Below are positions 30,176-64,000 of a stretch of DNA of 64,000 nt, in pieces. Location of the stretch: the NCBI RefSeq assembly GCF_006352065.1, contig NZ_CP040915.1, positions 310,001 to 374,000 on the forward strand, written 5' to 3'. The notes beneath the pieces were generated by a model that ran no database searches, had not been told where the DNA came from, and saw only the letters and a program-made list of their open reading frames with translations. How positions within the stretch are numbered: the first letter of the stretch is position 1; each line of letters opens with the position of its first letter. Origin of the DNA: Georgenia yuyongxinii (GTDB lineage Bacteria > Actinomycetota > Actinomycetes > Actinomycetales > Actinomycetaceae). A program made the translations under genes and the position numbers.

Positions 30176-30775
30176 TCAGCTGCGCGCGGCCACCAGGTCC
30201 GCCTCCCGGCGGGCCGGGCGGAGCAGGCCCTCCAGGCGGGCGAGCTCGTCGAGCATCGCACCGGCGGAGGCCTCGACGACGTCGTCGGGCAGGAAGCCGT
30301 CGGGCCCGAGGAGCCTGGCGACGAACGGGACGTTCACCGCTTCCACGGTCACCGCCATGCGCAGTGCGTCGAGCACCGGCTTGAGCTGCTGGGTGGCCCG
30401 GGTGCCCGCCGCGACGCCGCCGTAGCTGACAAGACCGACCGGCTTGTCCGCCCACTCGCCGTGCAGGAAGTCCAGGGCGTTCTTGAGCACGGCGTTGTAA
30501 CCGTGGTTGTACTCCGGCGTGACGAACACGAACGCGTCGGCGCCGTCGACGACGGCGGACCAGTCCTTGGTGTGCTGGTGGGTGTACTTGCGCTGCTTCG
30601 GGTGGTGGGGCTCGTCCATGAACGGCAGGGCCAGCTCGGCGAGGTCGGCGAACTGCACGTCGAAGCCCCCGTGAGCCCGCGCACACTCACGGAACCACTC
30701 ACCGACGTGAATGCCGACCCGTCCCGGACGGGTGGAGGCGACGACGACGAGGAGCGTGGGGTTCTCGGCACCCAT
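30176..30775 (-). CDS. NADPH-dependent FMN reductase
   Basis: A 199-aa flavodoxin-like protein from the ATG at 30775 (MGAENPTLLVVVASTRPGR). The FMN phosphate loop is ASTRPGRVG, and TPEYNHGYNAVLKNALDFL plus SYGGVAAGTRATQQL are signatures of the NADPH-dependent FMN reductase/azoreductase family. It reduces FMN or quinones in the cytoplasm and may supply reduced flavin. It is divergent from the catabolic operon at 31193 across a 417-bp region and could be co-regulated with it. Confidence 0.93.
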   Translation of the reverse strand: MGAENPTLLVVVASTRPGRVGIHVGEWFRECARAHGGFDVQFADLAELALPFMDEPHHPKQRKYTHQHTKDWSAVVDGADAFVFVTPEYNHGYNAVLKNALDFLHGEWADKPVGLVSYGGVAAGTRATQQLKPVLDALRMAVTVEAVNVPFVARLLGPDGFLPDDVVEASAGAMLDELARLEGLLRPARREADLVAARS

Positions 30776-31192
30776 GTGGTGTCCTTTCGTAGGCTGGAAC
30801 TGGCTGATCCTCGCAGGCTCGGCCGACGCCTGCGCCGGCCCGACCGCCCAGTGGACCCGCGTGCGGAAGGCGGCGACAGGCCCTCGTCCGCGGACTCGTG
30901 GATATGGACAAACTGGCCCTCCCTGCCGCACTCCCCGCAGGTGTGCTCAGCGGGTGAACTTCCCTTGACTTTGGCCTGACAGCATGTCAACTTAGTGGTC
31001 GTGACGTAAGGAGGGTCACACTCACCGGGTAGTGAATGACGCGCCAGGCGCGGACGGCGGGCCACCGGTGCACTGCCGTCCTTTTGTTGACTCCCGCCGC
31101 ACCGAGCGCCCGCTGGACCTGGTCCATGGTGGTGCGTGACCCTCCACAACGCGTGACGCCACAGCCGGTGTGACGCTGATGAAAGGTTTCCA
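30776..31192. promoter_or_regulatory. 417-bp control region upstream of the catabolic operon
   Basis: No clear gene. Candidate signals: TTGACT at 30965-30970 as a -35-like hexamer; the dyad TGACAGCATGTCA at 30977-30989, placed where a repressor would cover the promoter; and GTGAC/GTCAC arms at 31001-31005 and 31015-31019 around gtaaggagg. A short frame from ATG 31036 to a stop at 31173 (45 codons, MTRQARTAGHRCTAVLLLT) could be a leader peptide but lacks a well-placed RBS. The first operon gene starts at 31193 after aaagg. Confidence 0.5.
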
Positions 31193-32182
31193 ATGACGGA
31201 CGTACAGACTGCCGCGAGCAGAACCGTCAACACCGTTCTCGGTCCCGTTCCCGCCGACGACCTCGGTGTCGTCGCGGTCCACGAGGCGCTGCTCTCCGTG
31301 GTGCCGGGGGCCGAGCACGGATACGACATCACCATCGACCGAGCGGAGATCTTCGAGACCCTGGCCCGGAAGCTGAGGGATTTCCGCGACCACGGCGGCA
31401 AGACGATCGTCGACAGCACGGGCATGTTCCACGGCCGGGACGTCAAGCTCTACGAGGCGCTCTCCCGCTCGACCGGCGTGCACATCGTCGCCTCGACGGG
31501 GATGGGGCCGGAGGAGATGCTCGGCGGCTACTTCCTGACGCCGCAGACCAACCCGCCGACGCCGTGGCCCGCGGAGAAGTTCGCCGACCTCTTCACGAAG
31601 GAGGTCACCGAGGGCATGGTGGTCCCGCGCGTGGAGCGCCGCGGCGCCGCCGGGCTCGTGGCCACCACGGCCAGCCGCGCCGGCATGACACCGACCGACG
31701 AGAGCCTGTTCCGCGGCGCTGCCCGGACCGCCCTGGCCACGGGCGTGCCGGTGTCCATCCGATTCGGCGTCGACGCGCTCCAGGACCTCGACGTCGTCCT
31801 GGACGAGGGGCTGGAAGCCGACCGCGTCGTCGTCGGGGACCTGGACCGCAAGGACGCCGTCGCCGCGGGTGCGCCCCTGGAGGTGGCCCGCTGTGGCGCG
31901 TTCGTCGCACTTGACCACGTGGGTCTGGACGACGACGGCGCCTACGTCACCGACCGCGAGCGCGCCGCCCTGGTGGTCGAGCTCGTCAAGGCCGGCCACG
32001 GCAACCGGATCCTGCTCTCGAGCAACGCGATCGGCGTGGCCAAGGGGCACCCCGACCACGACCTGCCGTACAGCTACGTCTCCTCGACGTTCGTGCCCCT
32101 GGCCAAGTCCGTGGGCCTTCGCGACGAGGACGCCCGGCGCATCCTCGTGGACAACCCCCGCGACCTGCTGACCGTGCGCTGA
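31193..32182 (+). CDS. Phosphotriesterase-family protein lacking the metal site (pseudoenzyme)
   Basis: A 329-aa TIM-barrel amidohydrolase homolog, aligned along its length with the next gene product (NTVLGPVPADDLGVVAVHE against NTVLGAIPTEELGVVAIHE). The metal-binding positions are degenerate: HxH is HEA near 30-32; the bridging Lys segment reads GLVATTAS; the THL His is replaced in VSIRFG; GHVD is GDLD; and the final Asp is Asn (SSNAIG). Only the first His remains. By family knowledge it should not bind the binuclear metal centre. It may act as a partner or regulator of the downstream enzyme, or have a new activity. First gene of the operon. Confidence 0.85.
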   Translation: MTDVQTAASRTVNTVLGPVPADDLGVVAVHEALLSVVPGAEHGYDITIDRAEIFETLARKLRDFRDHGGKTIVDSTGMFHGRDVKLYEALSRSTGVHIVASTGMGPEEMLGGYFLTPQTNPPTPWPAEKFADLFTKEVTEGMVVPRVERRGAAGLVATTASRAGMTPTDESLFRGAARTALATGVPVSIRFGVDALQDLDVVLDEGLEADRVVVGDLDRKDAVAAGAPLEVARCGAFVALDHVGLDDDGAYVTDRERAALVVELVKAGHGNRILLSSNAIGVAKGHPDHDLPYSYVSSTFVPLAKSVGLRDEDARRILVDNPRDLLTVR

Positions 32183-32219
32183 GCCGCGACGTCGGCCCAG
32201 CCTCGAGACTTATTGGAGT

Positions 32220-33176
32220 ATGAGCATGTCTAAGGTCAACACCGTCCTCGGGGCGATTCCCACCGAGGAGCTGGGCGTCGTCGCCATCCACGAGCACATC
32301 GGGTACGGGATGCCCGGCTCCGAGCTGGACACGAAGTGGTGGAAGACGCCCGAGCAGCAGTACGAGGAGACCGTGCCGAAGCTGCGTCAGTTCCACGAGT
32401 ACGGCGGCGGGACCTTCGTGGACGCGACCGGCATCTGCAACGGTCGTGACGTCGACTACTACAAGTCCCTCTCCGCGAAGACCGGCGTTCACATCGTCGC
32501 CTGCACCGGCTTCGTCGGTGGTGACACCGCCCTGGCGCACTTCACGCGGGCCAGCGTGGAGTACCTGACCCGCCAGTTCGTCCACGAGATCACCGTCGGC
32601 ATCGGCGACACCGGCGCCCGCGCGGGCATCATCAAGGTCGGCGTCAGCCGCGGCGGGCGCATGACCGAGCTGGACAAGCGCATCTACCGGGCCGCCGCCC
32701 GGGCCGCGCTGGCGACCGGGGTGCCGATCATGACCCACCTCGCGATCGACGCCGAGAACGCGATCGCCATCTTCGCCGAGGAGGGCCTGGCGCTGGACCG
32801 CGTGCTCTTCGGGCACGTCGACGACGGCGTGAACTTCGACAAGACGCGCGACACCTGGATCGCCGAACAGGGCGGTCGCATCGGCTTCGACACCTTCGGC
32901 TACGAGACCGAGCTGGAGGACCCGCCGTTCTGGGCCCGCCCCCGCAAGGAGCGGCTGGACCACTTCCTGAGGTTCATCGGGCAGCACCTGGACAAGGCAC
33001 TCGCCTCCGCCGACGCCAACTGCAGCCCCCTGGGCTGGCCCGGCGTGAAGGGCCACACCGTCAACTACATCTTCGAGGACCTCTTCCCCGACCTGCGCGC
33101 GGCGGGCATCGACGAGGCCACGATCACGACGCTCTTCGTCGACAACCCCGCTGAGTTCCTGTCCATCCGCAACTGA
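32220..33176 (+). CDS. Phosphotriesterase-family metal-dependent hydrolase (lactonase/esterase-like)
   Basis: A 318-aa enzyme starting MSMSKVNTVLGAIP (an alternative ATG is two codons on). The complete binuclear-metal set is present: H24-x-H26 (AIHEHIGYG), bridging K139 (GIIKVG), H173 (IMTHL), H199 (FGHVDD) and D265 (ASADANCSP). The family hydrolyses lactones, phosphotriesters or esters; most PTE-like proteins of unknown partner are lactonases. The substrate is unknown. It is 37 bp downstream of its metal-less paralog, a tandem duplication in which only this copy kept the active site. Confidence 0.92.
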   Translation: MSMSKVNTVLGAIPTEELGVVAIHEHIGYGMPGSELDTKWWKTPEQQYEETVPKLRQFHEYGGGTFVDATGICNGRDVDYYKSLSAKTGVHIVACTGFVGGDTALAHFTRASVEYLTRQFVHEITVGIGDTGARAGIIKVGVSRGGRMTELDKRIYRAAARAALATGVPIMTHLAIDAENAIAIFAEEGLALDRVLFGHVDDGVNFDKTRDTWIAEQGGRIGFDTFGYETELEDPPFWARPRKERLDHFLRFIGQHLDKALASADANCSPLGWPGVKGHTVNYIFEDLFPDLRAAGIDEATITTLFVDNPAEFLSIRN

Positions 33177-33237
33177 TTTGCTCACCACCACAGACCCTCC
33201 GGGCGCACCGACGCGCCCCGCTCGAAAGGCAGCTCCT

Positions 33238-34350
33238 GTGAACACCTCAGACCTGAAGAACCTGAACATCGCCATCGTGGGTGCCGGGTACGGCGGTGCG
33301 GCCGCGGCCAAGGCGCTGAGCCAGCTCGGGGCGAACGTCAACGTGTACGAGCAGGCGACCGAGGTCCGAGAGGTCGGTGCGGGCATCGGCCTGCGGCCGT
33401 CCTCCATGGCCGCGTTCCGCCAGTGGGGGATCTTCGACGCCATCGCCGCCGTGAGCTCGGCGAGCGACTACTTCGAGATCCTCAGCGCCGGGGGCGACCC
33501 GATCATGAAGGACACCTGGCCGGAGTTCGGGGACGAGAAGAACACCTACCTCATCCACCGCAACGACTTCATCCAGGCCCTGCTGGGCACCCTGCCCGCC
33601 GGGATGGTCCACCTCGGTCACAAGCTGGAGTCCATCACCGAGCACGGCGACGGCGTGACGCTGGCCTTCACGAACGGCACGACCGTCGAGGCCGACCTGG
33701 TCGTCGGGGCGGACGGCATCAAGTCGACCGTGCGCAAGCAGCTGTTCAGCGACCAGGTGCCCCAGTTCGCCGGGGAGCACGCCTACCGCGCGGTCGTCGA
33801 CGCCGACGCCGCCCACGGCCTGGTGGTCGACGACAACCTGCGGATGTACATCGGCAAGGGCACCAAGGTCTACGTGCTGCCGCTGCGTCACCGCAACCAG
33901 CTGTCGTTCGACGTGACCGTCCTCAACCCCGACAGCACCTGGACGCCGGAGGTGTCCCAGGAGGACATGCTGGCCACGCTCGAGGGCTTCGACGAGCGCA
34001 TCGTGAACACCGCGAAGGACCTCGAATGGGACAAGGTCAGCATCCGCGCCGTCTACGACATCGACCCGGTCGACACGTGGCACTCGGACGCCGTCGTGCT
34101 GCTCGGCGACGCCGCGCACTCGATGTGCCACCACCAGGGCCAGGGCGCCAACTCGGCGATCCTGGACGCCGGCGCACTTGCCGACGCCCTGCGCGACGCC
34201 GGTTCCGTCAGGGAGGCGCTGGTCGAGTACAAGGCCGCCCGCAAGCCCGTCACCGACGAGCTGCAGCGGATCTCACGGCAGGGCTGGACCGAGGACGAGC
34301 TCAACGACGTCTTCCCCGGGCAGAAGCCCGCGACCCAGAGCCAGGTCTGA
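33238..34350 (+). CDS. FAD-dependent monooxygenase (salicylate hydroxylase-like)
   Basis: A 370-aa flavoprotein with a GTG start at 33238 (VNTSDLKNLNIAIVGAGYGG); aaagg lies upstream. It carries the FAD Rossmann motif VGAGYGGAAAAKAL, the DG motif VVGADGIKSTVRKQL (near 160), and the GD motif VLLGDAAHSMCHHQGQGAN near 285. This group-A hydroxylase layout resembles salicylate, hydroxybenzoate and nicotinate hydroxylases. It probably hydroxylates an aromatic or heteroaromatic intermediate with NAD(P)H and O2. It follows the PTE-like pair and precedes the esterase by 4 bp. Confidence 0.92.
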   Translation: MNTSDLKNLNIAIVGAGYGGAAAAKALSQLGANVNVYEQATEVREVGAGIGLRPSSMAAFRQWGIFDAIAAVSSASDYFEILSAGGDPIMKDTWPEFGDEKNTYLIHRNDFIQALLGTLPAGMVHLGHKLESITEHGDGVTLAFTNGTTVEADLVVGADGIKSTVRKQLFSDQVPQFAGEHAYRAVVDADAAHGLVVDDNLRMYIGKGTKVYVLPLRHRNQLSFDVTVLNPDSTWTPEVSQEDMLATLEGFDERIVNTAKDLEWDKVSIRAVYDIDPVDTWHSDAVVLLGDAAHSMCHHQGQGANSAILDAGALADALRDAGSVREALVEYKAARKPVTDELQRISRQGWTEDELNDVFPGQKPATQSQV

Positions 34351-34354
34351 CGCC

Positions 34355-35281
34355 ATGGCACTGCACCCCGAGATCGCCAAGATCGTCGCCAGCCTGCCGA
34401 AGGGCGACCATTCGGCGCCCGACGTGGCCGGCTGGCGCGCCGCCGAGGAGGGCCGCGTCCCGCCGCTGGACGAGCGCACCCCGCGGCTGCACGCCGTCGA
34501 GGACGCCACCGCGGAGACGTCGGCCGGGAACGTGCCCGTGCGGATCTACACGCCGGTCGAGGCGGACGTCTACGGCCTGCTCGTGTACTTCCACGGCGGT
34601 GCGTTCTTCTCCGGCAGCCTGGACACCCACGACCACGTCGCACGGTCGCTCGCGAAGGAGACCGGGCTCAAGGTGGTCTCGGTCGGCTACCGCCGGGCGC
34701 CCGAGGACGCTTTCCCGGCCGGCCTCGAGGACTGCTACGGCGTGGTCCGGTGGGCCGCGGAGAACGGCGAGGACCTGGGATGGGACGGCCGCACCCTGGC
34801 GATCGCCGGCGACAGCTCCGGCGGCACGTTCGTCGCCGCCGTCGCCGCCAAGGCCCACGACGACGGCTTCGACCGCATCACGCACCAGATCCTGTACTAC
34901 CCCTCGGTCGACCTCGACTTCGACGTCGACCGCTACGCCTCCCTGCGGGAGAACGCCGAGGGGTACGGCTTGGAGACGGCCGGGCTGAAGCCGCACAACT
35001 CCTTCTACATCGCCGGCGGTGCGGACCCGGCGGACCCGCTCGTCTCCCCGATCAAGCGGGAGGACCTCTCGGGTCTGCCGCCCGCCCTCGTCGTCACGGC
35101 GGAGCACGACCCGCTACGCGACGAGGGGGAGCTGTACGCCTCGCGGCTGCGTGAGGCGGGCGTGGACGTGACGGTCAGCCGGTACGCGGGCGCCAACCAC
35201 GGGTTCGTCCAGAACTTCTCCTGGATCCCGGAGTACTACCGGGTCTTCGAGGAGACCGCCGCCTACCTGGGCCGGCGCTGA
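34355..35281 (+). CDS. Alpha/beta hydrolase, HSL-type esterase
   Basis: A 308-aa enzyme (MALHPEIAKIVASLPKGDH). HSL/GDXG hallmarks: oxyanion motif YFHGGAFFSGS, nucleophile IAGDSSGGTF (GDSSGG), catalytic Asp in VTAEHDPLRDEG and His in AGANHGFVQ. It should hydrolyse a carboxylic ester (or lactone) in the cytoplasm. Spacing of 4 bp from the monooxygenase implies co-translation. Its family includes enzymes acting on small acyl esters; the substrate is unknown. Confidence 0.93.
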   Translation: MALHPEIAKIVASLPKGDHSAPDVAGWRAAEEGRVPPLDERTPRLHAVEDATAETSAGNVPVRIYTPVEADVYGLLVYFHGGAFFSGSLDTHDHVARSLAKETGLKVVSVGYRRAPEDAFPAGLEDCYGVVRWAAENGEDLGWDGRTLAIAGDSSGGTFVAAVAAKAHDDGFDRITHQILYYPSVDLDFDVDRYASLRENAEGYGLETAGLKPHNSFYIAGGADPADPLVSPIKREDLSGLPPALVVTAEHDPLRDEGELYASRLREAGVDVTVSRYAGANHGFVQNFSWIPEYYRVFEETAAYLGRR

Positions 35282-35312
35282 CCTGCCGGGCCCCCGCCCA
35301 GATGAGGAAGTC

Positions 35313-36269
35313 ATGACGTCACGCGTACCCGTCCACCCCCTGGTCTCCCCGTGGGGCCGATTCGGGCTGTACAGCTTCTTCATCGACGCCCCCGAACCGG
35401 CCATTGTCGACACCGGGATCGCCTCGTCGCCGGCCGAGGGTATGGCCCCCGCGCTCGAGGCCCTCGGCAGGCGAATCCAGGACGTCCGGTGGATCCTGCT
35501 GACCCACGGCCACATCGACCACCTCGGGGGCGCGCACGCCCTGTGGGAGCTCACCGGCCGGCGCGCCCAGGTCGTGATCCACGAGGCGGACGCGCCCCTG
35601 CTGCGCTCCCGGCGCGCCCACGTCCAGGAGTACCTGGACGTGCGCCAGCAGTACCTGCAGGACCCGGACGGCGAGGCCAAGCAGACCGCGGCGGCCGCAC
35701 AGGTCATCGCCGGCGAGATGGAGCCGACCCTGCTGGTCCGCGGCGGGGAGACGCTGTCCCTCGGCGGTGACGTCACCGTCTCGGTGCACGCCATCCCGGG
35801 GCACACGGCCGGCTCCGTCGCCTACGTCATCGACGGTCAGGACGACGTGTTCGTCGGCGACGCGGTGCAGATCCACGGCGCCGCCAACGGCTTCCCCGGG
35901 TACGAGGACCCGGCCGCCTACCGGGCGAGCCTGCAGCACCTGCGTGACCTGCGCCCGCAGCACCTGTACCTCGGCCACCCCTACCGAGGGGCGGACGGGG
36001 TGCCCCACGGCGTCGAGCTCGATAGCGAGCAGGCGCAGCAGGCGCTCCAGGAGAGCCTGGATCTCGAGGCCCGCGTCGCCGGCGCCGCGCACCGGCACCT
36101 GGGCGGGTGTGCGCGCGAGACGGACTCGGTGTACTCGCCCTTCGCCGGCGTTGCCAAGGATCTCGGCTACGAGAAGGACCCCACGCTGGAACCGTCCCCG
36201 TTCTTCACCACGCTTCACGGCTATGCCGCACAGTTCGACGCTGAAAGGGAGCCGCGCTCCGATGGCTGA
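35313..36269 (+). CDS. Metallo-beta-lactamase-fold hydrolase
   Basis: A 318-aa enzyme with the zinc motif LLTHGHIDHLGGAHAL (HxHxDH) near residue 65-72, the next His in IPGHTAGSV, an Asp in VFVGDAVQ, and a His in LGHPYRG. A helical C-terminus of about 90 residues follows. The family includes lactonases, glyoxalase-II-like thioesterases and arylsulfatases. In this operon it is a third metal or serine hydrolase and may open a ring or thioester formed by the monooxygenase step. Its stop overlaps the start of the CocE gene by 8 nt. Confidence 0.92.
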   Translation: MTSRVPVHPLVSPWGRFGLYSFFIDAPEPAIVDTGIASSPAEGMAPALEALGRRIQDVRWILLTHGHIDHLGGAHALWELTGRRAQVVIHEADAPLLRSRRAHVQEYLDVRQQYLQDPDGEAKQTAAAAQVIAGEMEPTLLVRGGETLSLGGDVTVSVHAIPGHTAGSVAYVIDGQDDVFVGDAVQIHGAANGFPGYEDPAAYRASLQHLRDLRPQHLYLGHPYRGADGVPHGVELDSEQAQQALQESLDLEARVAGAAHRHLGGCARETDSVYSPFAGVAKDLGYEKDPTLEPSPFFTTLHGYAAQFDAEREPRSDG

Positions 36270-38010
36270 TTCCAAGACTCTCGAGACCGACATCAAGACC
36301 TGGGACGCCGGTGGGCAGACCATCCACATCCGCAAGGACCTGCGGGTGCCGATGCGCGACGGCGTCGAGCTCGCCGCCGACGCCTACCACGGCGCGGCGG
36401 ACAAGCCGCGGCCTGCGCTGGTGGCGCTGAGCCCGTACGGCAAGGAGCTGCAGGCCCTTGCCCTGACGATGCCGCCGCAGCGGCGTCCGAGCCCGATGTG
36501 GGACGGCTGCATCGAGGCCGGGGACATCGCCCGCGTGGTCGCCGAGGACTACGTCCACGTCATCGGTGATCTGCGCGGGTCCGGTGCCTCCGAGGGCGAG
36601 CACATCGGCAACTACAACGCCGGTGGCGTCTCCCTGGGTCAGGACGCGTACGACTTCATCGAGTGGGTCGCCGCCCAGCCGTGGTGCGACGGCAACGTGG
36701 GGATGATCGGCATCTCCTACTTCGGCTCCATGCAGGTTTTTGCCGCCGCCGAGCGGCCGCCGAGCCTGAAGGCGATCTTCGTCAGCGGCGGCCACTACGA
36801 CTTCTACGAGACCACCTATCACGGCGGCATCATGTGGCTCATGCCCCGCGCCGCCCGCGAGGGCCGCGGGGGTGACTCCGGTTGGGCGTTCACCGACCGC
36901 ATCAAGTCCCGCATGCTCGAGACGTACTCCCCGGCGGAGGTCAAGGAGCGGGTCGCCAAGCGCCTGCAGGACCCGGACGTCGCCGCCTGGCCGAACCTGG
37001 TGCACGTGCTCCACTACCCGACGAACCACGAGGCCTGGTTCGACATCGTGATGAACGAGCTGGACGGGGAGTGGTACGAGGAGCGCAACCCGATCAACCT
37101 GGCCCGGAACATCGACATCCCCGTCTACCTGCAGATCGACCAGGGCCGCGGCTGGACCCTGGACGGCCACATCGAGCTGTTCAACGTGCTCAATGGCCCC
37201 AAGCGGCTGGACATCGGCTCCTACCCACCGATGCAGTCGCGTCCCTGGGTCGAGGAGCACGACAAGATGTTCCGCTGGTACGAGTACTGGCTCAAGGGCG
37301 TCGACAACGGCGTCATGGACGAGCCGGCCGTGCAGGTCTTCGTCGAGGGCTCGCGCGAGGTGGTCACGGCCGAGCAGTGGCCACCGAAGGAGGTCGAGCA
37401 CCGGGCGCTGTACCTGCGTCCGCGCCGGAAGCTGTCCCCGGAGCCGGAGCTGATGGGGGTGGAGCACGCCGGCCCGGACGGGTTCTTCCAGGCCCCCCTC
37501 ACGGTGACCGACAAGGTCGAGATCCTGAGCTGGAGCACCGATCCGTTCGCCGAGCCCACCGAGCTGATCGGCACCGGCGCCGCGCACATCTTCGCCGAGA
37601 TCGACCAGGACGACACGAACTTCATCCTGCGGCTGTGGGACGTCGCCCCGGGCGGCGCCCGTCAGCTGATCACCAGTGGCTACCTCAAGGCCTCGCACCG
37701 GGAGCTGGACGAGCGCACGACCGAGGGCGACCCGTACCACCCGCACACCCGTGCGGTGCCGGTGGAGCCGGGGACGATCGAGGAGTACGTGCTCCGGCTG
37801 TACCCGTTCGCGGCCACGTTCCGGCCGGGGCACCGCCTGACGGTGGAGCTGTCCAACAACGAGCCGCTGGTCGACGAGCACAACTCGCTGCTGCCGCCGG
37901 ACGCCTTCCATCTGCCGGTGGGCCGGCCCGTCACCCACAAGATCTACCGCGACGCCGCCCACCCGTCCCGGCTGGTGCTGCCGTTCACGCGCACGGTGGT
38001 GGAGGGCTGA
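36262..38010 (+). CDS. CocE/NonD-family hydrolase (X-Pro dipeptidyl-peptidase S15-like)
   Basis: A 582-aa enzyme from the ATG at 36262 (MADSKTLETDIKTWDAGG), overlapping the MBL gene. The S15 alpha/beta domain contains VPMRDGVELAADAYHG, DLRGSGASEGEH and the nucleophile elbow GMIGISYFGSMQV (G-I-S-Y-F-G), followed by a C-terminal jelly-roll (FAEIDQDDTNFILRLWDVAPG). Relatives hydrolyse cocaine esters, lactones, amino-acid esters and acylated amides. There is no signal peptide, so it is cytoplasmic. It is the last gene of the operon; a hairpin follows at 38032. Confidence 0.93.
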   Translation: MADSKTLETDIKTWDAGGQTIHIRKDLRVPMRDGVELAADAYHGAADKPRPALVALSPYGKELQALALTMPPQRRPSPMWDGCIEAGDIARVVAEDYVHVIGDLRGSGASEGEHIGNYNAGGVSLGQDAYDFIEWVAAQPWCDGNVGMIGISYFGSMQVFAAAERPPSLKAIFVSGGHYDFYETTYHGGIMWLMPRAAREGRGGDSGWAFTDRIKSRMLETYSPAEVKERVAKRLQDPDVAAWPNLVHVLHYPTNHEAWFDIVMNELDGEWYEERNPINLARNIDIPVYLQIDQGRGWTLDGHIELFNVLNGPKRLDIGSYPPMQSRPWVEEHDKMFRWYEYWLKGVDNGVMDEPAVQVFVEGSREVVTAEQWPPKEVEHRALYLRPRRKLSPEPELMGVEHAGPDGFFQAPLTVTDKVEILSWSTDPFAEPTELIGTGAAHIFAEIDQDDTNFILRLWDVAPGGARQLITSGYLKASHRELDERTTEGDPYHPHTRAVPVEPGTIEEYVLRLYPFAATFRPGHRLTVELSNNEPLVDEHNSLLPPDAFHLPVGRPVTHKIYRDAAHPSRLVLPFTRTVVEG

Positions 38011-38031
38011 CTGCCCCACCCGGCAGCCGCG

Positions 38032-38063
38032 GGCCGTGACGTCAGGTCCTCGACGTCACGGCC
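38032..38063. terminator. Bidirectional hairpin between the catabolic operon and tetR
   Basis: A perfect 12-bp inverted repeat GGCCGTGACGTC (38032-38043) / GACGTCACGGCC (38052-38063) with an 8-nt loop, located between the convergent stops at 38010 and 38113. It is symmetric enough to serve both directions; no T-run is present, as often in high-GC genomes. Confidence 0.8.
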
Positions 38064-38112
38064 GGCGTCGTCGTCGACGCGACGGACCCTGGCTGCGCCT
38101 CGGGCCGCGACG

Positions 38113-38724
38113 CTAGCTGCGTGGGCCGTCGTCCGTGAGGAGGTGGCACCAGGAGTCGGTCAGGATCCCGAGTGCGGTCTCCCTGTCCACGAGGTTCCAG
38201 CCCCGCTGCATCCACCGCACCGAGAGCCACTCGAGCTCGCCGAAGGCGAGCGAGCAGCGGACGAGGCGGGTGTCCGGCTCGAACCTGCCGGCGTCATCAA
38301 GTCCGTGCTGCATCTCCGCGATCGTCGCCTCGTACCACTGTTCCCGGGTGGCAGCGATGTCGGGCTCGACGGCGGCTGCCTGGTTGGCGGCGATGACGTA
38401 CGAGCGGGTGGCCGGCCACTGGTCGGCCTTCGTCTCGATGAAGGCACGGACGAGGCGCCGGTCGCCGGAGCTCACGACCTGGCGCAGCGGTGGGTCGTCG
38501 GCGCTGGTGAAGATCTCGTCGAGCACGGCCACGAGCTCTTGCATGAGCTGGGCCTTCGACGAGAAGTGCATGTAGAACGTCGTCCGGGTGGTCCCCGCAG
38601 CCGCCGCGATGTCGTCGATCGTCGTCGCCGCGTAGCCCTTGACCTCGAAGATCCCGAGTGCCTGCTCCAGCAGCAGACGACGGGTCATCTGCTTCTGGGC
38701 TTCTCGCAAGCGGGGGCGGGGCAC
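38113..38724 (-). CDS. TetR/AcrR-family regulator of the catabolic cluster
   Basis: A 203-aa product (MPRPRLREAQKQMTRRLLLE). The HTH reads GIFEVKGYAATTIDDIAAAAG with TTRTTFYMHFSSKAQLMQELV. The C-terminal ligand domain is helical with FIETKADQWPATRSYVIAAN and GELEWLSVRWMQRGWNLVDR. It is convergent with the six-gene operon and divergent from the orphan binding lipoprotein gene. By position it probably represses one or both and responds to an operon substrate. A GTCAGCTGAC dyad lies 50 bp upstream. Confidence 0.9.
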   Translation of the reverse strand: MPRPRLREAQKQMTRRLLLEQALGIFEVKGYAATTIDDIAAAAGTTRTTFYMHFSSKAQLMQELVAVLDEIFTSADDPPLRQVVSSGDRRLVRAFIETKADQWPATRSYVIAANQAAAVEPDIAATREQWYEATIAEMQHGLDDAGRFEPDTRLVRCSLAFGELEWLSVRWMQRGWNLVDRETALGILTDSWCHLLTDDGPRS

Positions 38725-39031: not shown

Positions 39032-40222
39032 ATGAAGAAGTCCGTCAAGGTCCTGGGAGGCCTGGCCGCCGCGGGCCTCCTCCTCGCCGGCTGTGGTGCC
39101 TCCGGCGTCACCCCGGCGGCCCCCTCCGTGGAGGCCCGCTCCGACGCCGCCACACCGGCCGCGGTGACCACGGACGGCGACCCGGGAGTGGCGGCAGCCC
39201 AGGAGCTGGTCGCCCAGGTGACCGCGGCAAGGGAGGAGTTCACGCCTCCAGGGCCCGGGCTGGGTGACCTCTCCGGCCTGACGGGGAAGACGGTCTACTT
39301 CGTCCCCGCGAACTACAGCATCCCGTTGTTCCGCATCATCGGGGACTCCCTGGCCACAGCCCTGGAGACCGCGGGCGTCGACGTTCAGGTGTGCGACGGC
39401 CAGGCCAGTCCCGCCTCCATGGCCGGGTGCCTGGCCGAGGCGGTCGACGCCGGGGCGGACGCCGTGGTGTCCGGCTCGGTCCCCGAGGAGCTGGCCTCGG
39501 TCGCGTTCCAGGCCGTGCGCGACGCGGACATCCCGCTCCTGTACATGCTCTTGGCGCCGGTCGGCCCGGGGGCGCCCGAGAAGGTCGGGTACCTCACCCC
39601 GGACACCACCACGCTGCAGTCCTGGAACGCCAACTGGGTGATGGCCGACTCCGACGGTGAGGCGGATGTCCTGGTGGTGAGGGTGACCGACACGCCCGCC
39701 ACCACCATGTGGACCGGCCAGGGCGCTATCGCGGTCTTCGAGGAGGCCTGCGAGGGCTGCACCGTGACCGTCGTCGAGACGAACACCGGCCAGCTGCACA
39801 AGCTCCCGGGCCTCGTCCATGACGCGCTGGTGCGTCACCCGGACATCGACTACGTCCAGGTGCCCTTCGACGTCGTCGTACAGCCGACGGTCCAGGGCCT
39901 GCAGAGCGCGGGCAGGACCGATGTGAGGATCAGCAGCCTGGACGGCACCCTCGCGGTGATGCAGATGCTCGGCGAGGACCAGGTGGTCGCCAGCGAGGTC
40001 GGCACCAACCTGGACGCCCTGGGCTGGTACGGCGCGGACCAGGTGCTCCGCATGATGTCCGGCAAGCCCAGCGTGCAGAACCTGGAGTTCCCCTACCGTC
40101 GCCTGTTCACGGCGGAGAACGTCGGTGAGCTGGCCCTGACCCCCGAGGCCGAGGCCGCGGGCTCGTGGTACGGAGGCACGGACTACCACGACGGGTTCAA
40201 GGAGCTGTGGGGCGTGAGCTGA
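39032..40222 (+). CDS. Orphan periplasmic-binding-protein-like lipoprotein (sugar-binding/RbsB fold)
   Basis: A 396-aa product starting MKKSVKVLGGLAAAGLLLAG, with lipobox LLLAGC (Cys near 21), so it is anchored outside the membrane. After a Thr/Ala linker the type-1 binding fold is recognisable: KTVYFVPANYSIPLFRIIGD, DAGADAVVSGSVPEEL, DIPLLYMLLAP, and the C-terminal RISSLDGTLAVMQML and LDALGWYGADQVLRMM. No ABC permease or ATPase gene is adjacent. It may feed a transporter encoded elsewhere or sense the compound degraded by the neighbouring operon. Confidence 0.85.
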   Translation: MKKSVKVLGGLAAAGLLLAGCGASGVTPAAPSVEARSDAATPAAVTTDGDPGVAAAQELVAQVTAAREEFTPPGPGLGDLSGLTGKTVYFVPANYSIPLFRIIGDSLATALETAGVDVQVCDGQASPASMAGCLAEAVDAGADAVVSGSVPEELASVAFQAVRDADIPLLYMLLAPVGPGAPEKVGYLTPDTTTLQSWNANWVMADSDGEADVLVVRVTDTPATTMWTGQGAIAVFEEACEGCTVTVVETNTGQLHKLPGLVHDALVRHPDIDYVQVPFDVVVQPTVQGLQSAGRTDVRISSLDGTLAVMQMLGEDQVVASEVGTNLDALGWYGADQVLRMMSGKPSVQNLEFPYRRLFTAENVGELALTPEAEAAGSWYGGTDYHDGFKELWGVS

Positions 40223-60095: not shown

Positions 60096-60872
60096 TCAGG
60101 TGGTGGTGCTCGTCGGCCCCGCGTGCCGGCCCTTCGGCGTCGGCGACTGCTCCCAGCCCGGGCGGGCCGGCCGGGCGCCGGCGCCCTCCTTGCGGGAGCG
60201 GTAGACGATGTACGGCCGCGACGCGTAGGGCAGCGGGGCGGAGAACACGTGGACCAGCCGCGTGAACGGCCACACGAGGAACAGCAGGAACGCGGCGACG
60301 ATGTGCAGCTTGAACGTCAGCGGCACGTCCGCCATCAGCTCGGGCTGCGGCTGGAAGTAGAACAGCGAGCGCAGCCAGGGCGAGATGGTCTCGCGGTAGT
60401 CGTACCCGTGCTCCCCGGCCAGGATCTGATGCTGGATGGTGGACCACATGCCCAGCAGGATCGGCAGCGCCAGCAGCACGTACATCAGCTTGTCCACCCG
60501 GGTGGTGGCCAGGAACACCGGCCCGGTGGTGCGGCGGCGGTAGATGAGGATGGCCAGGCCCACGATCGTCGCCAGCCCGGCCACCGACCCCATGTAGGTG
60601 GCGATGAAGTGGTACGCGGTCTGCCCGAAGCCGACCGCCTCGGTCCACGCCTTCGGGATCAGCAGGCCCATGAAGTGGCCCAGCGCCACGAAGATGATGC
60701 CGAAGTGGAACAGCGGCGAGCCCAGCCGCAAGATCCTGTGCTCGTACAGCTCGGAGGAGCGTGTGGTCCACCCGAACTTGTCGTAGCGGTAGCGCCAGAT
60801 GGCGCCCACCACGAACACGGCCATCGCCACGTATGGGAACACCACCCACGCGAGGGTGCTTGTGGCACTCAT
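60096..60872 (-). CDS. narI: Respiratory nitrate reductase gamma subunit (cytochrome b)
   Basis: A 258-aa membrane protein from the ATG at 60872 (MSATSTLAWVVFPYVAMAVF). Five helices are visible; heme-ligand candidates lie in GSPLFHFGIIFVALGHFMGL (two His) and in KLHIVAAFLLFLVWPFTRLV-HVFS (two His), matching NarI. It oxidises menaquinol and passes electrons to NarH. A basic Pro-rich tail of 40 residues follows the last helix. The start overlaps the narJ stop by 4 nt. Confidence 0.96.
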   Translation of the reverse strand: MSATSTLAWVVFPYVAMAVFVVGAIWRYRYDKFGWTTRSSELYEHRILRLGSPLFHFGIIFVALGHFMGLLIPKAWTEAVGFGQTAYHFIATYMGSVAGLATIVGLAILIYRRRTTGPVFLATTRVDKLMYVLLALPILLGMWSTIQHQILAGEHGYDYRETISPWLRSLFYFQPQPELMADVPLTFKLHIVAAFLLFLVWPFTRLVHVFSAPLPYASRPYIVYRSRKEGAGARPARPGWEQSPTPKGRHAGPTSTTT

Positions 60873-61567
60873 GCCCTGACCTCCGAGCTGGCGGCCCCCT
60901 GCGGGGCGAACGGTTCCAACGGTCCCAGCGCGCTCAGCCCCACCATCTCCGTGGGAGGGCCCGCGGTGATGAGCTGCAGCAGGCGGTCCTCGACGGCGGC
61001 GCTGGGCTTGGGCAGCACCAGGCAGATCGCCTCGACCACCGCCGCGTACGCGCTGCCCATCTGGGTCAGCGCCGAGCGCAGCACCTCGATGCCCTCGCGG
61101 TGCGAGGCCAGCAGGGCGCTGCCGAGCTCGGCGTCCCCGACGGCGGTGAACTCCAGCACGATCGGCAGGAAGTCCGGCAGCTCGTTGCGGTCCACCTCCC
61201 ACCCCGCGGCGCGGTACGCCTCGACGAACCGCACCAGTGCGGTGCCGCGGCGCCGGGTGTCGCCGGTGAGGAAGTAGGACAGGTACATCGAGCACTTGCG
61301 CTTGGTGTCGAAGGTGTCGACGTAAGCGCGGGCCAGCTGCTGCGGGTCGGCGGCCAGCGCGTGCTCGGCGAACCCTGCGATCCGGGACCGCACGGCCTCG
61401 GGCAGCTGGGCGACGCCGTCGCGCACCGTGGCCATCCGAGCCACCTGCTCGGCGGTGGGGTAGTCGAGCAGCACGGAGGCCGCCATGCAGGTCAGCGCCC
61501 GCTGCCGGGCCGTGACGTGCACCGGGCGCAGCGGCTCCAGCGCGGGCACGCGGACGAAGGAGCTCAT
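60869..61567 (-). CDS. narJ: Nitrate reductase assembly chaperone
   Basis: A 232-aa cytoplasmic chaperone of the NarJ/TorD family that binds apo-NarG and helps Mo cofactor and membrane assembly. It shows RQRALTCMAASVLLDYPTAE, YVDTFDTKRKCSMYLSYFLT (typical DTF/S-T-LY region), and NELPDFLPIVLEFTAVGD (PDFLPxxLEF signature). It overlaps narH upstream and narI downstream by 4 nt each, so the operon is tightly coupled. Confidence 0.96.
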   Translation of the reverse strand: MSSFVRVPALEPLRPVHVTARQRALTCMAASVLLDYPTAEQVARMATVRDGVAQLPEAVRSRIAGFAEHALAADPQQLARAYVDTFDTKRKCSMYLSYFLTGDTRRRGTALVRFVEAYRAAGWEVDRNELPDFLPIVLEFTAVGDAELGSALLASHREGIEVLRSALTQMGSAYAAVVEAICLVLPKPSAAVEDRLLQLITAGPPTEMVGLSALGPLEPFAPQGAASSEVRA

Positions 61568-63354
61568 CGGTGCCCCTCGGCGGCGTCGGAGCCGGGCCGG
61601 GCGTCGTCCCGGGAGATACCGGGGAAGCCCCCGGGGTTGGGGTCGTCGCGGAACGTGCCGGCGGCGGCGTCGGGGTCGGTCACCGTCAGCGACTCCGGCT
61701 CCGGGGCGCGGCCGGAGCCCGGCGGGAACAGCCCGCTGGCGCTCCCGCGCCCGTCCCAGTTGAGCAGGTTGACCCGCCCGCGCCCGGACGGGGTGTGCGG
61801 GCTGTCCGTCGTCTGGCGTTCCTTCAGGGCGTGGAAGGTCTCCACGCTGGCCGGCTGCGGGACGCCGGAGGAGGTGCCGAACGGGCCGGTGCCGCCCATG
61901 CCGGGGCCGCCCTCGAAGTCGAGCGAGCAGGCCATCTCCTCCAGGCCCTGCGCCACCTCGGTGTGCGCGGTGGGGATGACGTAACGCTCTTCGTACTTGG
62001 CGATGGCCAGGAGCCGGTACATCTCCTGGATCTCCGTGCCGGTCATGCCCACGGCCGCGGCGATCCCCTCGTCGGGCTCCTCCCCGAGGTTGATGTCGCG
62101 CATGTAGGAGCGCATGGCGGCCAGGCGGCGCAGCGTCTTCTCCACAGGGGCGGTGTCCCCGGCGGAGAACAGCCCGGCCAGGTACTCCAGCGGGATGCGC
62201 ATCGTGGACAGCGCCGTCAGCAGCGTCTTGGCGTCCTCACCGTCGTTGCCCGAGGCGGTGACGACGTCGACCACCGGGCTCAACGGCGGGATGTACCAGA
62301 CCATCGGCAGGGTGCGGTACTCCGGGTGCAGCGGCAGCGCCACCTCGTAGTCGCTGATGAGCCGCCAGATCGGGGAGTTCTGCGCGGCCTCGACCCAGTC
62401 CGCCGGGATGCCGTCGCGCCGGGCGGCGGCGACGACCTCCGGGTCGTGCGGGTCGAGGAAGACCGAGCGCTGCGCGGCGAGCAGGTCGTGCTCGTCCTCG
62501 ACGGCGGCCGCCTCACCCACCCGGTCGGCGTCGTAGAGCACCAGGCCGAGGTAGCGCAGCCGGCCCACGCAGGTCTCCGAGCACACGGTCGGCAGGCCGA
62601 CCTCGACGCGCGGGTAGCACAGCGTGCACTTCTCGGCCTTGCCGGTCTTGTGGTTGAAGTAGACCTTCTTGTACGGGCAGCCCGTCAAGCACATGCGCCA
62701 CCCGCGGCACTGCTCCTGGTCCACGAGCACGATGCCGTCCTCGGCCCGCTTGTACATCGCGCCGGAGGGGCACGAGGCCACGCAGGACGGGTTGAGGCAG
62801 TGCTCGCAGATCCGCGGCAGGTAGAACATGAAGGTCTTCTCGAACTCCATGGCCACGTGGTCGTTCATGTGCTTGAGCACGGGGTCCAGGGTGGCGATCT
62901 CCTGGGAGCCGCCGAGGTTGTCGTCCCAGTTGGCCGACCACTCGATCTTCGTGGGCTCGCCGGTGAGCAGGGACTTCGGGCGCGCGACCGGGGTGTGCCG
63001 GGAGTTCGCCGGGGCGGAGAGCAGCGCGTCGTACTCGTACGTCCACGGCTCGTAGTAGTCGTGGATGGTGGGCATCTTGGGGTTGGAGAAGATCGTCGCG
63101 AGCTTCTTCAGCCGCCCGCCCGCGCGGAGCTTGACCTTCCCCCGCTTGGTGCGCACCCACCCGCCGCCCCACCGCTCCTGGTCCTGGTAGGTGCGGGGGT
63201 AGCCCAGCCCGGGCCGGGTCTCGACGTTGTTGAACCAGACGTACTCCATGCCGGTGCGGTTGGTCCACGCCTGCTTGCACGTCACCGAGCAGGTGTGGCA
63301 CCCGATGCACTTGTCCAGGTTCATCACCATGGACATCTGCGCCATGACCTTCAT
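61564..63354 (-). CDS. narH: Respiratory nitrate reductase beta subunit (Fe-S)
   Basis: A 596-aa ferredoxin-like subunit (MKVMAQMSMVMNLDKCIGCH). Iron-sulfur ligand sets: CIGCHTCSVTCKQAW (near 16-24), ICEHCLNPSCVASCPSGAM, CRGWRMCLTGCPYKK (Trp where the fourth Cys of a 4Fe cluster would be, giving the 3Fe-4S centre of NarH) and CTLCYPRVEVGLPTVCSETC. It relays electrons from NarI to NarG on the cytoplasmic side. The C-terminal 90 residues are Pro/Gly-rich and not conserved. Confidence 0.97.
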   Translation of the reverse strand: MKVMAQMSMVMNLDKCIGCHTCSVTCKQAWTNRTGMEYVWFNNVETRPGLGYPRTYQDQERWGGGWVRTKRGKVKLRAGGRLKKLATIFSNPKMPTIHDYYEPWTYEYDALLSAPANSRHTPVARPKSLLTGEPTKIEWSANWDDNLGGSQEIATLDPVLKHMNDHVAMEFEKTFMFYLPRICEHCLNPSCVASCPSGAMYKRAEDGIVLVDQEQCRGWRMCLTGCPYKKVYFNHKTGKAEKCTLCYPRVEVGLPTVCSETCVGRLRYLGLVLYDADRVGEAAAVEDEHDLLAAQRSVFLDPHDPEVVAAARRDGIPADWVEAAQNSPIWRLISDYEVALPLHPEYRTLPMVWYIPPLSPVVDVVTASGNDGEDAKTLLTALSTMRIPLEYLAGLFSAGDTAPVEKTLRRLAAMRSYMRDINLGEEPDEGIAAAVGMTGTEIQEMYRLLAIAKYEERYVIPTAHTEVAQGLEEMACSLDFEGGPGMGGTGPFGTSSGVPQPASVETFHALKERQTTDSPHTPSGRGRVNLLNWDGRGSASGLFPPGSGRAPEPESLTVTDPDAAAGTFRDDPNPGGFPGISRDDARPGSDAAEGHR

Positions 63355-63405
63355 AGGGTCACGCTCCCCCTTCGCTCGTGCCTCGCTGCGGAGCTCGCCG
63401 TTCCG

Positions 63406-64000
63406 TCATGAGTACTGCACCTCCTGGCTGCGGCGACGGATGACCGTCACCTCGTCACGCTGGTTGCCCGTGGGGCCGATGTAGTTGAACGCGTAGCTCA
63501 GCTGGGCGTAGCCGCCGATGAGGTGGCTGGGCTTGAGCAGCACCCTGGTCACGGAGTTGTGGATCCCGCCGCGCAGCCCGGAGGTCTCCGCCACCGGCAC
63601 GTCGATGACGCGGTCCTGGGCGTGGTGCATGTACACCGTGCCCTCGGGCATGCGGTGGGAGACCACCGCGCGGGCCACGATCACGCCGTTGCGGTTGTAA
63701 GCCTCGATCCACTCGTTGTCCTTGACGCCGATCTTGGCGGCGTCCTGCACCGACATCCAGATGCTCGGGCCGCCGCGGGAGAGGGCGAGCATGAACAGGT
63801 TGTCCTGGTACTCGGAGTGGATGGACCACTTCGAGTGCGGCGTCAGGTAGCGCACGGCCACCTCGGCCACCCCGGCGGGTGCGGACCCGGTGGGTGTGGT
63901 GTCGCCGGGGATGGCGTCACCGAACAGCCGGTGCATGTCCAGCGGGGGCCGGAAGACGGGCAGGTTCTCCCCGATCTCGCTCATCCAGTCGTGGTCGAGG
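63406..64000 (-). CDS. narG: Respiratory nitrate reductase alpha subunit, C-terminal part (truncated by window)
   Basis: The frame is open through the window edge; 198 codons of the C-terminus are visible. The segment has KWSIHSEYQDNLFMLALSRG, SIWMSVQDAAKIGVKDNEWI and NRNGVIVARAVVSHRMPEGT, the molybdopterin-dinucleotide-binding domain of NarG, with YMHHAQDRVIDVPVAETSG near the end. The catalytic Mo-binding part lies beyond position 64000. The gene precedes narH by 51 bp. Confidence 0.95.
   Translation of the reverse strand, partial: LDHDWMSEIGENLPVFRPPLDMHRLFGDAIPGDTTPTGSAPAGVAEVAVRYLTPHSKWSIHSEYQDNLFMLALSRGGPSIWMSVQDAAKIGVKDNEWIEAYNRNGVIVARAVVSHRMPEGTVYMHHAQDRVIDVPVAETSGLRGGIHNSVTRVLLKPSHLIGGYAQLSYAFNYIGPTGNQRDEVTVIRRRSQEVQYS

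Follow-up and report, generated by a model that had tools for sequence, protein, structure and literature searches.

The six-gene block and its proteins

This report concerns a six-gene block in a Georgenia genome of 4.17 Mb, found in a stretch of 64,000 nt that covers positions 310,001–374,000 of NZ_CP040915.1. The whole stretch is referred to as the window; its GC content is 72.4%, and coordinates below are window positions. Calls of open reading frames (ORFs) combined with family-model searches place six ORFs of the plus strand between 31193 and 38010 in an operon-like arrangement, with intergenic gaps of 37, 61, 4, 31 and −8 bases. All six belong to the families named for them in a preliminary description of the same DNA. 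We report here a link between this block and the genes of 3-hydroxybenzoate degradation, which is new and is based on physical linkage and on co-occurrence in genomes.

The first two genes encode relatives of phosphotriesterase (PTE), of which active members are recognized by the two histidines of an HxH motif, a carboxylated lysine, two further histidines and one aspartate. PTE2 (32220..33176; PF02126, E = 1.4e-48) retains each of the six metal ligands in every one of 77 aligned sequences. Its best solved relatives are parathion hydrolases/PTE, it is 35% identical to plasmid-borne OPH, and it is a probable metal-dependent lactonase or esterase. PTE1 (31193..32182) has the PTE-type TIM barrel fold but has lost the metal site. 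H57, K169, H201 and H230 are gone in all 84 aligned sequences and D301 in 83 of them, with H55 retained in 83. Because the metal site is lost and yet PTE1 evolves under purifying selection, we regard it, from the alignment, as a conserved PTE-fold pseudoenzyme adjoining an intact relative. Such an arrangement, in which a dead copy adjoins an intact one within a single block, differs from what is known of the PTE/PTE-like lactonase family. PTEs are homodimers, and PTE1 could have no catalytic role and act as the partner of another protein, most likely PTE2, or it could bind a ligand as a subunit. The two genes are a natural pair of intact and dead paralogues that would be of use for asking what pseudoenzymes do, and they also bear on the natural use of this pesticide-hydrolysing family. 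A search of plasmids with PTE2 (E limit 1e-20) found identity above 60% only in Caballeronia insecticola, in one of 12 records.

The third gene (33238..34350 with a GTG start, or from a TTG at 33178; PF01494) encodes a group A FAD monooxygenase (FMO). Its best solved relatives are 6-hydroxynicotinate 3-monooxygenase (154 bits), tropone 2-monooxygenase and salicylate hydroxylase. It shares the family and the FAD motifs with enzymes of the 6-hydroxynicotinate 3-monooxygenase/salicylate hydroxylase type but scores far below the listed equivalog cut-offs. The HSL-family alpha/beta hydrolase (34355..35281; PF07859, E = 2.4e-67) has the HGG oxyanion motif, GDSxG, Asp and His expected of HSL/Abhydrolase_3 proteins, and its motifs HGGAF, GDSSG, DP.RDEG and HGF are retained in at least 98.5% of 74 aligned sequences. 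The metallo-beta-lactamase (MBL)-fold hydrolase (35313..36269; PF00753) likewise has the HxHxDH, His, Asp and His of its fold, with THGHxDH, PGH, F..D and LGH retained in at least 98.5% of 71. From these alignments, match pieces from BLAST with an internal stop were dropped (8 of 78 for MBL and 1 of 75 for CocE), and loci that fell short of the limits on identity or coverage are not included. The last gene (36262..38010; PF02129 and PF08530, TIGR00976) encodes a CocE/NonD-family protein with the domain architecture of cocaine esterase and a conserved nucleophile motif, GISY. Unlike cocaine esterase, it carries conserved GRGW and PPM at the positions that read GWADG and GPWSH in a Georgenia paralogue, so that by alignment the Asp and His positions of the usual triad appear lost and the Ser kept. 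The structure model of this protein is of poor quality (pLDDT 53).

The preliminary description had seen a degenerate PTE1, which is borne out, no complete metal site being left in any of the 84 sequences, and visible active sites in the hydrolases, which holds for PTE2, HSL and MBL but not for PTE1 or, by alignment, CocE. It had also proposed a hydroxylation followed by successive ester, lactone and amide cleavages of one compound. Because two of the five presumed hydrolases, PTE1 and, by alignment, CocE, are without canonical catalytic residues, five hydrolytic steps are unlikely as proposed.

Conservation of the block across genomes

PTE1 was used as the bait in a single scan that covered 84,980 species, so that its presence in the recovered loci is by construction. 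The scan gave 99 relatives, of which 80 were kept; with Caballeronia insecticola plasmid p2 and genome G107 they make 82 loci. Two further loci, L026 and L028, duplicate L048 and L053 and are excluded from the counts. The hosts are Actinobacteria, Bacillaceae and Caballeronia, with Streptomyces, Arthrobacter, Rhodococcus, Nocardia and Bacillus among the genera. All six genes occur in the same order and on the same strand in 62 of the 82 loci, and in another 10 only MBL is inverted. The remaining 10 loci lack at least one block gene at the limits used, and at least three of these lie at contig or flank ends or have another gene order. FMO is present in nearly all loci. The order and strand of the block are conserved far beyond chance.

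Four of eight other Georgenia genomes have a PTE2 match at 87–95% identity, together with all six genes in the same order, one of them with a transporter gene inserted between HSL and MBL. The remaining four have no PTE2 match at E = 1e-3. Each of four Bacillaceae genomes has an FMO at 47–48% identity, and the gene order there is different: PTE1-PTE2-SCP2 thiolase-DUF35 in one stretch, and CocE-MBL-CoA-transferase A/B-GntR-(in some, an AAHS-type transporter)-FMO-HSL in the other. In two of the genomes these stretches are on separate contigs. Of 249 genomes searched in the order to which these belong, two matched, G450 itself and G642; G642 has PTE1 to MBL, and FMO and HSL were not seen within the stretch examined. 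In L136 (10311–11273) and L137 (8779–9777), both from Bacillaceae, the operon is followed by a gene for a lipoprotein-like protein whose MBL fold resembles RNase Z (by model match in L136) and which may be an exported hydrolase acting on the same substrate. In Bacillus sp. OK048 (L125:1–9534) PTE1 is preceded by Rieske, SDR, extradiol, aldolase-like (judged by eye) and aldehyde dehydrogenase genes, a set that resembles an upper pathway for a bicyclic aromatic.

The gene set is conserved in order across Actinobacteria and on the Caballeronia plasmid and rearranged in Bacillaceae, in keeping with the earlier notion of a dedicated set with its own TetR regulator. No description of this gene set or pathway was found in searches of an open-access library, and the preliminary description likewise knew of no characterised pathway with exactly this set; PMC12343579 mentions neither phosphotriesterase nor CocE. 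Conservation over Streptomyces, Arthrobacter, Rhodococcus, Nocardia, Bacillus and Caballeronia leads us to expect a common soil compound as the substrate. On the whole, the earlier interpretation is partly supported.

Linkage to 3-hydroxybenzoate ring cleavage

Two alternative routes of 3-hydroxybenzoate degradation are established (PMC3572157), and 3-hydroxybenzoate is the common substrate of the gentisate and MobA routes (PMC3572157 and PMC12343579). At least two of the four gentisate-route clusters, namely FAH, maleylpyruvate isomerase-like (MPI), 3-hydroxybenzoate 6-hydroxylase (3HB6H)-like FMO and gentisate dioxygenase (GDO), are present within the flank covered in 22 of the 82 loci. The gentisate genes stand on either side of the block, differing by locus, which argues for repeated selection for the linkage.

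Co-occurrence at the level of genomes points in the same direction. The GDO family (TIGR02272) was found in 51 of 61 block genomes (7 of 7 and 44 of 54) compared with 40 of 296 genomes in the class (p = 1e-26 by Fisher's exact test), where the 61 genomes were chosen by us from about 82 and L067 is not among them. The class background itself includes block genomes (G000, G107 and two with coordinates matching G718 and G734), which makes the test conservative. By genus, GDO was found in 22 of 26 with the block and in 20 of 106 of the background, in a manual tally of record titles that omits G107. All seven GDO neighbourhoods examined, that of the host genome included, contain a 3HB6H-like FMO (43–71% identical to the cluster representative) and an FAH-family gene. 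In the host genome these genes form an operon, IclR-3HB6H-GDO-FAH-MPI-like, at about 576.8–581.5 kb of G000:C1 (L182). Apart from this operon, the host genome has a tandem pair of GDO-family genes with identical scores (L183; G000:C1:3272209–3274578), with no 3HB6H adjacent.

Genomes without GDO tend to have the other route. A MobA-like FMO was found in 9 of 10 block genomes lacking GDO compared with 14 of 36 having it, and at 57% identity or above in 8 of 10 compared with 3 of 36; none was found in the host genome. IclR regulators that resemble the gentisate-side representative adjoin genes of both routes, 5 of 7 gentisate operons (40–72% identity) and 3 of 10 MobA-like genes (38–42%). Judged by linkage to or co-occurrence with 3HB6H/GDO or MobA, the block would belong to a 3-hydroxybenzoate catabolic regulon. 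Compared with the known mhb/gen operons, it is linked to or co-occurs with them in most block genomes examined, but it has no enzyme in common with them and would lie upstream.

These results lead us to favour, somewhat more than we doubt it, the notion that the block is a peripheral catabolic pathway giving 3-hydroxybenzoate from an aromatic precursor, probably an acid or a conjugate that releases a 3-hydroxybenzoyl unit. In some hosts the substrate would come from a P450 or Rieske system, in others through an aromatic-acid transporter. FMO could insert oxygen, PTE2, HSL and MBL could hydrolyse the resulting lactone or ester, and a beta-keto acid side product could be cleared by CoA-transferase and thiolase. 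The 3-hydroxybenzoate would then be opened, depending on the species, via gentisate by 3HB6H and GDO or via protocatechuate by a MobA-like 4-hydroxylase. If true, the block would be a testable source of 3-hydroxybenzoate. A widespread, hitherto undescribed aerobic route, in which FMO, the hydrolase series, a hetero-oligomer of the PTE pseudoenzyme and enzyme, and a CocE-fold protein with a rebuilt active site break down a natural aromatic of the bicyclic or aryl-ketone type with no ring-cleaving dioxygenase and release 3-hydroxybenzoate and a beta-keto acid, seems to us unlikely.

Several observations weigh against the proposed production of 3-hydroxybenzoate. In 60 of the 82 loci there is no gentisate module within the flank covered, and matches to the GDO family that reach the cut-off of the curated model number 0/7, 0/58 and 0/296. 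GDO is also found in two, and a MobA-like gene in one, of four block-free Georgenia, and in Kocuria atrinae (G709) neither route was found at the limits applied. The 57% identity cut was set after the data had been seen. The NCBIfam model matched by the MobA-like genes bears the name phenol 2-monooxygenase and is the one to which MobA belongs, so that their assignment as MobA is a probable one. In genomes of wide catabolic range, the two modules may be present together without any functional connection. The gene set, its order and conservation, the loss of the PTE1 site and the genomic links to 3-hydroxybenzoate genes are observed; the substrate class, direction, order of reactions and the association of PTE1 with PTE2 are what we infer, and linkage by itself carries no direction.

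The lack of direction, together with the resemblance of FMO to aromatic-acid ring hydroxylases, several of which are decarboxylating, also speaks for a block that runs parallel to the linked operon and uses up 3-hydroxybenzoate or gentisate without producing it. However, it would be unusual for a single island to contain two such routes that duplicate each other, and five hydrolase-fold proteins would have no obvious role after a simple ring hydroxylation. We consider consumption very unlikely.

Intradiol dioxygenases occur in 28 of 35 block genomes. Because they are missing from the other seven, they are not required, and an intradiol (catechol/protocatechuate) sink was rejected as an obligatory partner of the block. 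All seven intradiol-free genomes have a GDO-family gene, four have a match to an extradiol model above its cut-off, and five have LigB. One might ask whether the block itself opens the ring, with FMO dearomatising or ring-opening an imported aromatic acid, as does the ring-opening FMO 2-methyl-3-hydroxypyridine-5-carboxylate oxygenase, and the hydrolases yielding a beta-keto acid for CoA-transferase and thiolase; the 3-hydroxybenzoate genes would then be merely co-selected. The six genes include no dioxygenase, as this scenario would have it, and it can point to the seven intradiol-free genomes and to Nocardiopsis algeriensis, where neither intradiol dioxygenase nor LigB was found and extradiol-model matches were only two and short. 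The versions in Bacillaceae and Kocuria also look self-contained, with an AAHS-type transporter in both and CoA-transferase, SCP2-type thiolase and DUF35 in the former. But with a GDO-family gene in all seven intradiol-free genomes, none of the 35 is free of ring-cleaving dioxygenases, and the complementarity of GDO and MobA would be left without explanation, which makes ring opening by the block unlikely in our judgment.

Neighbouring genes, regulators and other features

The genes flanking the 82 loci were clustered by single linkage at 35% identity. The most frequent clusters are TetR (58 loci), P450 (42), ferredoxin reductase (40), ferredoxin (29), DHA2 transporter (29) and LysR (26), followed by FAH-family (22), mycothiol MPI (22), 3HB6H-like FMO (19), CoA-transferase A and B (17), GDO (15), thiolase (13) and GntR (11). 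Best matches of family models are to 3HB6H, GDO, CoA-transferase of the 3-oxoacid type and PcaF-like thiolase; scores exceed the cut-offs for both subunits of CoA-transferase and for the mycothiol-enzyme domain, and 3HB6H, GDO and PcaF miss theirs. Transporters of the aromatic acid/H+ symport type occur in L050 (Kocuria), L049 (an Arthrobacter metagenome-assembled genome) and the Neobacillus operon L136, a call that refers to the best model, TIGR00895, at scores below its cut-off.

These neighbours also bear on whether the block is a broad-specificity island of detoxifying or scavenging esterases and lactonases, directed at pesticides, antibiotics or quorum-signal lactones and located only incidentally within aromatic catabolic islands. 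The PTE, MBL, HSL and CocE families all include members that hydrolyse xenobiotics or lactones, and catabolic genes do cluster in islands. On the other hand, the six genes are conserved in order and co-inherited, with CocE 57–92% identical to that of the window in Actinobacteria and Bacillaceae (77% in Caballeronia), and the same downstream genes are linked repeatedly. Since nearly all loci have an FMO and several have transporters of the aromatic-acid type, we keep hydrolysis of quorum signals or pesticides as a quite unlikely explanation.

The P450 of the cluster is closest to CYP199. A benzoate-binding role of the CYP199 kind was set aside, as the sequence differs around the segment that binds the benzoate carboxylate. 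In Georgenia SYP-B2076 (L025, L145; G008:C7:1–32000) a set of Rieske dioxygenase, ferredoxin and dihydrodiol dehydrogenase genes faces the block, accompanied in the same region by catechol 2,3-dioxygenase-like, beta-keto acid cleavage enzyme, 3-oxoacid CoA-transferase and caprolactamase/acetophenone-carboxylase-like HyuA/B genes; this region may encode the upper part of a pathway for the compound on which the block acts.

The TetR gene of the window (38113..38724, minus strand; PF00440) is convergent with CocE. Regulators 55–60% identical to it adjoin a 3HB6H-like FMO (L148 = L088) and P450 and MobA-like genes (L181), and one stands after CocE in L062. The regulators fit the link to 3-hydroxybenzoate because these TetRs adjoin the 3HB6H-like FMO and the pair of P450 and MobA-like genes. 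Between CocE and TetR lies a hairpin with a 12-bp stem (38032..38063; −37.8 kcal/mol for the stretch 38020–38080, z = −3.33), a possible bidirectional terminator; it has no T-run and was not picked up by the terminator scan. Scans for promoters (0 sites compared with 0.4 expected) and terminator-like sites (2 compared with 2.1) were uninformative.

Beyond TetR is a gene for a sugar-type ABC substrate-binding lipoprotein (SBP; 39032..40222, plus strand; PF13407). It had been described as an orphan, which is so in the window, where neither an ATPase nor a permease was found beside it, but not in the relatives L026 and L028, where TetR, a sugar-type ATPase, a permease and SBP follow the block in this order. 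ATPase and permease clusters occur in 4 and 3 of the 82 loci, respectively, within the flanks covered. In Blastococcus L110 both stand directly after the block, and an SBP match lies between these clusters and the block. By comparison with these loci, the SBP of the window is all that is left of an ABC importer that some of the relatives have. On the other side of the block, an NADPH-dependent FMN reductase gene (30176..30931, minus strand; PF03358) is divergent from PTE1 and is possibly an accessory to the block; a 76% identical gene lies upstream of the block in G004, and G001 has a partial match. Farther away, at 60869–63984 on the minus strand, the window contains genes that by eye resemble nitrate reductase subunits.

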